From assembly GCA_010031735.1 (NCBI GenBank), contig RGZB01000016.1:1-36138 (forward strand): a stretch of 36,138 nt of DNA, given 5' to 3'. Every line of letters starts with the position of its first letter. Positions within the stretch are counted from its first letter, which is position 1. Under the pieces are notes generated by a model. The model had not been told where the DNA came from and did not search any database. It saw only the letters and a program-made list of their open reading frames with translations. The position numbers and the translations under genes were made by a program. The DNA is from Pseudomonadota bacterium. Lineage in GTDB: Bacteria > Pseudomonadota > Alphaproteobacteria > Rickettsiales > RGZB01. Shown in pieces: positions 7,640 to 20,774 of the stretch.

Positions 7640-7654
7640 TTAATAATCTATTAA
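7640..7654 (+). promoter_or_regulatory. CtrA-box-like element TTAA-N7-TTAAC
   Basis: TTAATAATCTATTAAC; two TTAA half-sites with 7-bp spacer, 45-59 bp upstream of the ATG at 7699. Confidence 0.6.
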
Positions 7655-16270: not shown

Positions 16271-16360
16271 TGGCGGAAGCGGTGAGATTCGAACTCACGG
16301 TACCGTTGCCGGTACGACGGTTTTCAAGACCGTTGCCTTAAACCACTCGGCCACGCTTCC
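16271..16360 (-). tRNA. tRNA-Ser (anticodon UGA), CCA encoded
   Basis: Reverse strand GGAAGCG...GTCTTGAAAACC...GTTCGAATC...CGCTTCCGCCA; acceptor stem GGAAGCG/CGCTTCC, anticodon loop CTTGAAA, long variable arm. Confidence 0.95.
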
Positions 16361-16423: not shown

Positions 16424-16460
16424 TTAAGGTTTTATTAAGGCTTTATTAACATTATCTTAA
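16424..16460 (+). promoter_or_regulatory. Tandem CtrA-like array: four TTAA half-sites at exact 11-bp period
   Basis: TTAAggttttaTTAAggctttaTTAAcattatcTTAA; half-sites at 16424, 16435, 16446, 16457. Confidence 0.7.
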
Positions 16461-16464
16461 GTAA

Positions 16465-16498
16465 TCCCCCTTAGAATAAAAGGTGCGAATAAGGGGGA
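16465..16498 (+). promoter_or_regulatory. SD-sequestering hairpin ahead of the 1422-aa ORF
   Basis: TCCCCCTTA (16465-16473) / TAAGGGGGA (16490-16498), perfect 9-bp stem covering the AAGGGGGAGA Shine-Dalgarno; ATG at 16506. Confidence 0.75.
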
Positions 16499-16505
16499 GA
16501 GTTTT

Positions 16506-19500
16506 ATGGTTGAATCAACGCTTAATGCGTCGGTAACGGAACGTTCGTTTGATAGCTCGCAGCTCGCGAACTTCCAATTCATAGCAACCGGTGCAGGGCT
16601 TACGCGCCAGGATATGATTTCCGTTAATCCAGACAATGGCGGTTTCACTGTCAATCTTACCGAACAAGAGCAAGCCAAGTTTACGAGCCATGCTGAACAA
16701 TTAATGGATGGCGTACGCCGTACAAATGGCGTGATTGCTCCCGGTGTGGAAGACATGGTGGCAGCGCTGAACGGCCGCGATACTACAGCACCGGAACCAG
16801 AAGTTGAACAAACAGAACCTGCAAGCGTTTATGACCGGATGATGGCTTCAGATGGCTTAAAGCCTGACGAGAAAGAAGTGGTCACCATGCTGCGTGACCG
16901 CATCCAGGGTGCTCCGAAGGCAGTAGAAGATCTTTTAAATGATGGCCAATATCCAGAAGAAGTCGCTGCAAGTATGCGCGATGCCGCGGCGGACGGCTTG
17001 CAGACCGAGGATAAACAACTCACCCGAATACTTACCGAATACCGAGATGCAAAACGAAACGGTATGTCGCAGGAAGATTTCATCATCAAGAAATTCGGTA
17101 AGGGTGCACTTGAGAAAGACCAAGCAGTAGATAGTCCGGCCGTCGAAGCAGAACCGCCCGTGGTTGACGCACAAGCGACGAGCACGGATGCACCCGGTAT
17201 CCCGGATGTTCATGATCTGGTTCTCAAACGTAATGCGGAGTTGGGAATCACGGATGAAGGCACGGTGGAGCTGCCGAACGGCGATTTTGCACTGAGTGTC
17301 CCGCGCGAGAAAGAAGGCGCGCTCAAAAAAGAGCTCGAGGACTCGGGCGCTAAACTGGGTGAAAACTTCAGGATGCAGCGCGATACGAACAGTACACGCT
17401 TCGTGATGAATGAAGAGACGCTTGATAAGCTTTCAGCCTACACTAGCGAACAAGCAACGAAAGAGCGCGATGCGATGGTTGCTGAGCAACCGGCTGCGCT
17501 CCCGACACAGGGCGAGCTTGTAACCCAGCGTCTGTCGGATCTGGGTCTCACGCCGGAAAATCGTAGCGAGGGTGCCGATAAAACCAAAACCGTTTTCACT
17601 GTGCCGCGCGAGAAGGAAGCCGACCTTAAAGCCTTCCTCGATGATAACAACGTGGGTTACGGCAACGAATATAAGATGCAGCGTGATTCGAACGGCACCA
17701 CGCGCTTCGAATTGAATAAGGATGCGATGGATGTCGTCATCGAACGCGTTATTAAAGATGCAAGAGAAGAAGTTGCAGCGCGTGATGCTGCCCCACAGCA
17801 GGTGGTTTCATCGGGCCCGGGTCTTGGCGATGCGACACTCGCGGTATTGGATGGTAACGCAGGTGAACTCACGAGCGAGCAGGCGCTTGCTAATGGGGAT
17901 CTTGCACTGCCAGGCAATGATAAACTCCCGGATCCTACCACGGCAGAGATCGATCCGAACACTTCAGCACTGATCGGCGGTGATGAAAGGGGTCTCAATC
18001 AGCTTCCGATCAACGACAAGACAGAGCGCGATGCGGCTAGTATGATCCGTACGGATGACGGCCAGTTCGTCAACGCGGGTACGGCACTCCGCCAAATGGA
18101 ATTCTATCCGAACGTCACCAATGGTGGTGATGATATCCTGCGTGCAGAAATCCCGGCCGGTATGAACAAGGATGATGTTCTGAAAGCGGTTCGCGATGCG
18201 TTGCCGATGGTAGATCCGGATTCCATGAGTCTTGTGAAAAGTACAGAGATGGGTGGTGCTGATACGCTTCGCATCACGGGCGCTGAGAATATTGCACAGT
18301 TCAAGAGCCAGGTGAAGGGCGTGCCGATCACTTTCCATGAAAATACCTATACCGAAGTGCAAGCAGAGAGAAAAACTGCTGCCGAGCAGGCACTAGGTGA
18401 TATGGAGTTCTATCCGAATAAAACCAATGATGGCCAGGATATTCTCCGTGCCGAGATACCGGAGGGCGTAAATAAAGAAGAGCTGCTCGGGCAAGTGAAG
18501 AAGATGCTCGCTGATAAAGGCGTCGATCCGGAATCAGTCACCCTGCGTAAAAGCGTAGAAATGTCTGCAGTGCGCGGGGAAGATGTTGAGACGCTCCGCA
18601 TCACAGGCGCAGAGAATATTGCGAAGTTCCAGGAAGCACTGGGCGAGCTGACCACTAGTCATAAACACTCCTTTACGCAAGAAGCGAAGGTGCAGGAAAC
18701 ACTTGAGACTAAAACGCCTGCAGATGCAGAAAGACTCATCGGTAGTTTTATCACCGATGGTACATTAAAAAGTGAAGACAGGGCAGGTCTCCAGGATGCG
18801 GCGTATGAAAAGGCCGGAAAAATGGATGTTCTTGAAGCCCGCCGTGCAGGTCCTGCATTCGAAGTAGTGGAGGATGCCCCGGCTCCAAAAGATAAAAGCA
18901 CCGCTAAGGCGACAATCATGTCGCCTGAAGAGATCAAGGCAGAAAACCTTAATGAACTCTCGAGTGCCTTTACGGATTATAGTGTGAATGTCCCGAAACA
19001 GGGCCGTGGTACGGAAGAGGGGTATCTTGACCGTGCAGAACTGGTATTCGATGTCGCTGAAGGTAAAGGTGATCAGGCGCAGTATGCTATGAAGCGTATG
19101 CAGAAAAAGCTCGATGACGCCGGTATCGAAGGCGTTGAAATGCGCTACAATGCTGAGACCAACCAGGTGGTCATGCAGGTGCAGGGCGGTGATGATATGT
19201 ATCCTCCGAAAGAAATGGCCGGTAAACTCGCCGAAGCGGCAGAAGCTATTGGTTTCATTGAGACGGATGAAGTCAAACAAGATGTAAAAAGGGGGGCGAA
19301 AGTACCGAATGAAGATCGTCCGGATCCAGCGCTGCCATCTACCTGGATGGAACGCCGCATGGAGGGTTTACAGCAGATGGCAGACTCTATAGAACAAGCT
19401 GCAAACGATTTTGGTGAATTTGTTGTTGATAACAAAGTCACGCGTGCGGTGGATAGCGCCTATAAAGGTGTCTCTTCCTTCCTGTCTGCGGTGAAAGGTT

Positions 19501-20774
19501 TCGTCACCGACCCGTTCGGCGATAAGGCGGTCGAGGCGGATTTACAGAAACACCGTGATAGGCAAGCCGATGCTGCAGGCAAATATTTCGAGGATATCGA
19601 GAAGGGTACTGCAACGGAAGTTGAACAACCGCAGAAAGCTGCTGCGAAAAAGCAAAATGCCGAAGCTGAGCTTGATGAAGTCGACGAGAAGCCGAAGAAA
19701 GCAGCTGCTCCTAAGAAGAAACCGGTAGAAGCCGAAGTGGATGAAGTCGAGAAACCGACGAAGAAACCGGCGACGCGTAAAGCGGCAGTGAAGGAAGATG
19801 GCCCGGTCACCGAGGCAGATCAATTCGCGGCGATGATGGAATCAGGCAACCTACCGGATAGGAAGCCGCGTGGTTCCGATATCGATCAACCGAACAATCC
19901 GTTCGTTGGTATGACGAGTTCTCAAGAAGTGCGCGATGCGAACGATAAGTCCAATGCTCCTGTAAAAGATGATGGTGCAGCAGTAGAATTCGGTGCGATG
20001 ATGGGTTCAGGCGATCTGCCGGACAGAAAACCGCGTGGCTCCGATATCGATCAGCCGGACAATCCATTCGTTGGTATGGTCGCTACTGCGCAAGTACGTG
20101 ATGCATTAGAAAATGCGAATGCCCCGGTTCTGGAACCTGTAGATGGTCCGGATATCGAGGCGGATATCGAAGAAGGTCGCGCCCGCGATGAGGCAAGGAA
20201 AAGCGAAAGAGAAGCAGACCTGAAGAATGTTGCTGCGAATCTTGAAGGTCTTGATGGCGTTACTGATGGTGTGCCGATGGCTGAAGAGGTGGTAGATATC
20301 GAGGCGGATATCGAAGAAGGTCGCGCCCGCGATGAGGCAAGGAAAAGCGAAAGAGAAGCAGACCTGAAGAATGTGGCTGCGAATCTCGAAGGTCTTGATA
20401 AACCGCCGGAAGAAGTCGATCCGAATGCCGTGACCCAAGTAAGCGATCCGGAAGCGGTAGATCTGGAAGGTAGAGAAGGTGTTTCTGCGGCAGATACCGC
20501 TACGAATCTGGCTGGTGATACCAGTACGAATCTTGATAAGGATGGTAATGGCATCCCGGATCCGCAATCGATGGATGCTGGCGACAAGTTCGCGGCAGCG
20601 ATGACGAACGGTACTACGAATATTGAAGAACAGGTATCGCGTGCAGAGCTGGATGGTGTTGATTTGAATGCCTTCAGGTTCGATGATGCTCCGGCGGAAA
20701 CGGCGCCTGATCAATCAATGGCTAGTAAGGTTTCAGGCAAGGGCGGCGGCAAACAGGCAGCCGCTAGCCGTTAA
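16506..20774 (+). CDS. Giant 1422-aa acidic, internally repetitive orphan protein
   Basis: Single ORF with strong SD; several internally duplicated modules; Lys/Ala/Pro-rich linker; DKDGNGIPD motif near the C-terminus; no signal peptide or TM seen. Confidence 0.9.
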   Translation: MVESTLNASVTERSFDSSQLANFQFIATGAGLTRQDMISVNPDNGGFTVNLTEQEQAKFTSHAEQLMDGVRRTNGVIAPGVEDMVAALNGRDTTAPEPEVEQTEPASVYDRMMASDGLKPDEKEVVTMLRDRIQGAPKAVEDLLNDGQYPEEVAASMRDAAADGLQTEDKQLTRILTEYRDAKRNGMSQEDFIIKKFGKGALEKDQAVDSPAVEAEPPVVDAQATSTDAPGIPDVHDLVLKRNAELGITDEGTVELPNGDFALSVPREKEGALKKELEDSGAKLGENFRMQRDTNSTRFVMNEETLDKLSAYTSEQATKERDAMVAEQPAALPTQGELVTQRLSDLGLTPENRSEGADKTKTVFTVPREKEADLKAFLDDNNVGYGNEYKMQRDSNGTTRFELNKDAMDVVIERVIKDAREEVAARDAAPQQVVSSGPGLGDATLAVLDGNAGELTSEQALANGDLALPGNDKLPDPTTAEIDPNTSALIGGDERGLNQLPINDKTERDAASMIRTDDGQFVNAGTALRQMEFYPNVTNGGDDILRAEIPAGMNKDDVLKAVRDALPMVDPDSMSLVKSTEMGGADTLRITGAENIAQFKSQVKGVPITFHENTYTEVQAERKTAAEQALGDMEFYPNKTNDGQDILRAEIPEGVNKEELLGQVKKMLADKGVDPESVTLRKSVEMSAVRGEDVETLRITGAENIAKFQEALGELTTSHKHSFTQEAKVQETLETKTPADAERLIGSFITDGTLKSEDRAGLQDAAYEKAGKMDVLEARRAGPAFEVVEDAPAPKDKSTAKATIMSPEEIKAENLNELSSAFTDYSVNVPKQGRGTEEGYLDRAELVFDVAEGKGDQAQYAMKRMQKKLDDAGIEGVEMRYNAETNQVVMQVQGGDDMYPPKEMAGKLAEAAEAIGFIETDEVKQDVKRGAKVPNEDRPDPALPSTWMERRMEGLQQMADSIEQAANDFGEFVVDNKVTRAVDSAYKGVSSFLSAVKGFVTDPFGDKAVEADLQKHRDRQADAAGKYFEDIEKGTATEVEQPQKAAAKKQNAEAELDEVDEKPKKAAAPKKKPVEAEVDEVEKPTKKPATRKAAVKEDGPVTEADQFAAMMESGNLPDRKPRGSDIDQPNNPFVGMTSSQEVRDANDKSNAPVKDDGAAVEFGAMMGSGDLPDRKPRGSDIDQPDNPFVGMVATAQVRDALENANAPVLEPVDGPDIEADIEEGRARDEARKSEREADLKNVAANLEGLDGVTDGVPMAEEVVDIEADIEEGRARDEARKSEREADLKNVAANLEGLDKPPEEVDPNAVTQVSDPEAVDLEGREGVSAADTATNLAGDTSTNLDKDGNGIPDPQSMDAGDKFAAAMTNGTTNIEEQVSRAELDGVDLNAFRFDDAPAETAPDQSMASKVSGKGGGKQAAASR
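20151..20399 (+). repeat. Near-identical 105-bp direct repeat (20151-20255 and 20295-20399) inside the giant ORF
   Basis: Encodes DIEADIEEGRARDEARKSEREADLKNVAANLEGLD twice; only two mismatches seen by eye. Confidence 0.93.

Follow-up and report, generated by a model that had tools for sequence, protein, structure and literature searches.

What acts on a row of four TTAA half-sites set at perfectly even intervals in front of a giant orphan gene, and do all four take part? Within the window (the whole stretch of 36,138 nucleotides that was analysed) TTAA occurs at 16424, 16435, 16446 and 16457, forming an exact TTAA-N7-TTAA-N7-TTAA-N7-TTAA over 16424-16460 that reads TTAAGGTTTTATTAAGGCTTTATTAACATTATCTTAA directly in the sequence. 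The initial annotation had placed these half-sites in perfect 11-bp phase, on about the same helical face and just upstream of a giant open reading frame (ORF), and each of these points holds. The match is exact, the helical drift computed at 10.5 bp per turn is about 51 degrees in total over the four sites, and 45 bp separate the end of the array from the ATG at 16506 of a 1422-aa ORF. Four sites in 11-bp steps give the periodicity of a phased multi-half-site operator, and they are the only TTAAs in the 145-bp gap between the ORF and a tRNA-Ser gene. The four-fold pattern has a single match in the window even when two mismatches are allowed; the 2.38-Mb genome contains one exact four-fold array and just two further triples. 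The features of the locus are as follows:

16271-16360, minus strand: divergent tRNA-Ser(TGA), from ARAGORN
16424-16438, plus strand: distal CtrA-like box 1 (half-sites 1 and 2), TTAAGGTTTTATTAA, direct sequence; no -10 at +26 on either strand
16435-16449, plus strand: middle, overlapping CtrA-like box 2 (half-sites 2 and 3), TTAAGGCTTTATTAA, direct sequence; no -10 at +26 on either strand
16446-16460, plus strand: gene-proximal CtrA box 3 (half-sites 3 and 4), TTAACATTATCTTAA, N7 spacing, with a -10 exactly +26 from its start
16472-16477, plus strand: -10 element TAGAAT, which fits the genome-specific TAnnnT at +26 from the box start
16484 (about ±2 bp), plus strand: predicted transcription start, about 7 bp downstream of the -10, which would put the box start near -38
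16493-16499, plus strand: Shine-Dalgarno sequence GGGGGAG, direct sequence
16506-20774, plus strand: gene of the 1422-aa orphan protein, an open frame without relatives or convincing domains and the predicted promoter target

Gene-context statistics were collected from 398 kb of the genome together with the window (434 kb, an 18% sample), with genes called by a simple codon-usage model and TTAA pairs counted at spacings 0-30. N7 proved to be the single enriched TTAA-Nk-TTAA spacing in this sample. There are 44 such pairs, all of them intergenic (44/44) and 42 of them upstream of a gene, against an average of about 4.5 at other spacings, coding pairs included. The window alone holds six TTAA-N7-TTAA pairs where shuffling predicts 0.31, and none of 100 shuffles reached six. 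When boxes were oriented to downstream genes within 130 bp, 24 of 45 promoters had a TAnnnT -10 beginning at +26 relative to the start of the box, and any other offset accounted for at most 7. The combined pattern TTAAN7TTAAN11TANNNT has 76 matches genome-wide, 16446-16477 among them, as against one for a reversed control, and the remaining N7 boxes of the window (7640, 22338 and 35207) all carry the -10 too. The 76 exact promoter matches show that this lineage applies the classical layout of CtrA promoters to a large set of genes. Its order is probably Rickettsiales, since the ctrA DNA of one order-mate matches that of a Wolbachia endosymbiont at 82% identity (G092). The same pattern is in strong excess over its control in several other families of the order (for example 53:0 in G010 and 103:7 in G023); many others show no strong excess, and control counts are high in several.

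At the array, this layout singles out the gene-proximal box. The -10 scores are 4.8 for box 3, 0.4 for box 1 (which has CATTAT at +26) and -14.5 for box 2 (GTAATC), and every minus-strand register scores below -2. Box 3 is the predicted activating site because it alone has a -10 at the modal offset of the genome. Its full score of 21.7 is average for the training boxes, which range from 13.3 to 30.4, and its downstream end is TTAAG, not the commoner TTAAC. If transcription starts near 16484, as predicted, the leader would be about 22 nt long, with a strong GGGGGAG ribosome-binding site. Box 3 alone has the -10 at +26 together with this ribosome-binding site, and therefore forms an ordinary promoter core that points to the orphan gene and not to the tRNA. 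Boxes 1 and 2 were rejected as independent promoters, as neither is followed by a -10 at +26, whichever strand is read. The divergent tRNA-Ser is apparently no CtrA target either; its control by CtrA was rejected, since the minus-strand registers of the array lack a -10. A perfect 8-bp inverted repeat (CCCCCTTA / TAAGGGGG, 16466-16497) extends across the -10 and the predicted start to the ribosome-binding site. Since the left arm precedes the predicted start, the mRNA would not fold in this way, and the repeat may be due to chance.

A CtrA ortholog is encoded at C1:60878-61546, scoring 394 bits against a curated cut-off of 350. Its DNA-binding domain is 69-78% identical to those of eight alphaproteobacterial CtrAs compared outside Wolbachia and Holospora, and the recognition-helix region is near-identical to that of the CtrAs compared. 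The ctrA gene is itself preceded by TTAA-N7-TTAA, with the box ending 73 bp upstream of the start, and the genome also contains a ChpT homolog (a PF10090 match above cut-off). Six further OmpR-type regulators fit the CtrA model over nearly their full length, and a similar site could be shared with them. The earlier description of three full CtrA-like boxes thus stands in part. That these are CtrA sites has strong support from their spacing, their intergenic location, the -10 geometry and the fact that the genome encodes both CtrA and ChpT, but the boxes are not equivalent, and the proximal one alone is placed as the CtrA-activated promoters of this genome need.

We consider it very probable that the array serves as a CtrA operator and that CtrA activates a promoter of the orphan gene at 16506 through it. 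The analysis shows the sequence, the spacing statistics and the -10 geometry, and that CtrA and ChpT are encoded; from these we infer binding, activation, the start site and any role of the distal half-sites. A chance origin in AT-rich sequence, or use by another regulator, with no part for CtrA, is highly improbable; the region is 68% AT and other OmpR-type regulators are encoded, but the genome-wide N7 and -10 geometry statistics argue against it, as do the N7 boxes at 7640, 22338 and 35207, which likewise come with a -10. As a CtrA operator, the array would work through a phosphorylated CtrA dimer on the proximal box (16446-16460), whose two TTAAs, separated by roughly a helical turn, would each take one DNA-binding domain; the dimer would overlap the -35 region. 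CtrA bound there would recruit RNA polymerase to the -10 TAGAAT (16472-16477), with transcription starting near 16484. The distal half-sites at 16424 and 16435 would add one distal dimer site and an overlapping, competing register; if they are active at all, the likeliest effect would be a modest shift in CtrA occupancy.

The Caulobacter full motif begins near -35, for example at -39 at ctrA P2 (PMC4287350). The locus resembles the CtrA-activated full-motif promoters of Caulobacter crescentus (PMC4287350) in its motif and spacing and in where the motif stands with respect to the -10 and the start, and the genome likewise has a CtrA ortholog and a ChpT homolog. Unlike them, it has two further in-phase upstream half-sites, and its target is an orphan gene of a deep lineage, probably Rickettsiales. 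A predicted CtrA promoter of a known kind is well supported, and the two extra upstream half-sites appear to be a rare local extension of unproven function.

Chance alone accounts poorly for that extension. A quad arose in 3.5e-5 of simulations under a Markov-1 model of the AT-rich intergenic region. TTAA occurs at 0.0058 per position in the intergenic flanks of single boxes, and, given isolated CtrA boxes, this flanking frequency yields a probability of about 0.012, a post hoc value, that a set of about 118 boxes includes one quad or more. The four-fold array is thus unlikely to be a chance product of single CtrA sites (about 0.01, post hoc). This genome has 3 clusters of at least three sites where 1.4 would be expected by chance (P about 0.16). 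Units 1 and 2 agree at 10 of 11 positions (TTAAGGTTTTA / TTAAGGCTTTA), and unit 3 (TTAACATTATC) has diverged. Because of the near-identity of units 1 and 2, an 11-bp tandem duplication could account for one extra site, and the distal half-sites at 16424 and 16435 probably arose at least partly by duplication of an 11-bp unit.

It may well be, although we stop short of calling it probable, that the distal half-sites are neutral: slippage in AT-rich DNA would have duplicated 11 bp from a single CtrA promoter, with no consequence for regulation. The similarity of units 1 and 2 is in keeping with this, as is the near-chance number of clusters of at least three sites; the divergence of unit 3 tells against it, since duplication would then directly yield at most one extra site and the phase of all four sites would remain partly coincidental. 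Neutrality also agrees with the order-mates, where phased extra sites are not enriched among the matches listed. A selected phased architecture should give an excess of third half-sites at offset 11 elsewhere. We tallied upstream TTAA offsets at the CtrA promoters of 21 genomes of the order, among 150 matches listed, the array of the window itself being counted. Offset 11 has six in-phase third half-sites where the offsets average 7.1, and the single boxes of the 434-kb sample of this genome have none; a selected architecture is therefore not supported among the matches listed. The cooperative or graded binding first proposed for the phased array is accordingly plausible but unsupported, as in-phase extra half-sites are not enriched at the CtrA promoters of the order-mates and an 11-bp duplication is possible. 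Among the matches listed for the same 21 genomes, extra upstream TTAAs seem somewhat commoner at distances of 8-9 and 19-22 bp, counted from the start of the box (as many as 15, where the mean is 7.1), possibly reflecting a second CtrA dimer in a different register.

Across the class, quads were found in 24 of 395 alphaproteobacterial genomes, with 39 matches against 20 control matches, and many of them come from genomes rich in AT or from simple tandem repeats. In one other alphaproteobacterial family, two genomes have four phased TTAAs, aligned with each other, in front of the same HpcH/HpaI-like gene (L141:1501-1537 and L142:1501-1537), a better candidate for conservation of such arrays. 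A further quad stands upstream of an MshEN-glycosyltransferase gene at a locus of 58% GC (L147). The quads at L141, L142 and L147 lack a -10 at the distance seen in this genome. Neither the class-wide quad search nor the offset tally among the matches listed supports a general CtrA architecture of phased arrays.

These data also bear on whether the four half-sites form a functional operator, with two CtrA dimers in tandem on half-sites 1-2 and 3-4, binding cooperatively or hierarchically as in tandem pho boxes, so that the promoter would respond to CtrA~P more sharply or earlier. We regard this as unlikely. Its attractions are the exact 11-bp phase over four sites, single in the genome and with a post hoc chance of about 0.01, and the aligned quads before the same gene at L141 and L142. 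The pho boxes of the OmpR/PhoB family are 11-nt direct repeats bound head-to-tail by a winged-helix response regulator, and the array shares their half-site periodicity and regulator type (PMC4415409). The half-site sequence is different, however, and TTAA is palindromic, so its orientation cannot be read; the likeness lies in the 11-bp periodicity, and selected tandem occupancy is not supported for the array. Against a four-half-site operator stand the offset-11 count among the matches listed for the 21 genomes of the order (6, where the mean is 7.1), the absence of in-phase third sites at single boxes in the sample of this genome, and the rarity of quads among the 395 alphaproteobacteria, at about twice the reversed control.

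The Caulobacter pilA promoter, with four CtrA sites, is likewise built from one -35 CtrA site and upstream CtrA sites (PMC11264516), and the extra upstream sites there alter affinity and timing, which lends the four-half-site operator some further support. The direction of the pilA effect leads to another reading, in which the distal sites would be inhibitory: a CtrA dimer occupying the middle register (16435-16449), or one further upstream, would compete with, or delay, productive binding at the proximal box. The upstream pilA sites lower and delay expression, and three closely spaced tandem copies had the lowest activity in that study (PMC11264516). The middle register, both of whose half-sites are common to the neighbouring boxes 1 and 3, shares one with the proximal box. 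The pilA sites are not phased like the array, however, being degenerate and irregular (31, 3 and 78 bp apart; PMC11264516) where the array has contiguous consensus half-sites in 11-bp phase. We regard inhibition as unlikely. The array is a natural test piece for whether the number of CtrA half-sites tunes output, with Caulobacter pilA as the closest studied case found.

The predicted target encodes a protein without recognisable kin. Relatives of the 1422-aa protein were absent from 96 order-mates, seven genomes with close CtrA relatives, a collection of genome contigs, viral contigs and plasmids; there was no Pfam match, and NCBIfam, PHROG and PDB gave insignificant matches only. The protein has no cysteine and a net charge of -116, and a k-mer scan found several internal repeats, for example an exact 35-aa repeat (1216-1250 / 1264-1298). 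It fits its regulon. Of 22 genes tested downstream of a CtrA box, six match a Pfam domain. Among genes that lack a box, the figures are 15 of 18 where the upstream gap is long (Fisher P = 0.0005) and 17 of 17 in a random control set. The CtrA regulon, with loci such as 22338 and 35207 in the window and C1:41684, is in this sample strongly biased to proteins without a known domain, and because of this bias CtrA boxes offer a route to lineage-specific genes. In its most ambitious form, two CtrA~P dimers bound head-to-tail on one DNA face would make an ultrasensitive or hierarchical switch for a lineage-specific protein, in a CtrA regulon rewired towards orphan proteins; we think this quite improbable. 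The regulon includes a VirB8-like gene with a CtrA box 25 bp upstream. Basic C-terminal tails give no sign that regulon proteins are type IV secretion substrates, as mean C-terminal charge is nearly equal in box-controlled and other proteins. The window has a GC content of about 53%, and flagellar and chemotaxis genes were found, traits that recall the free-living basal families described in PMC9352585.
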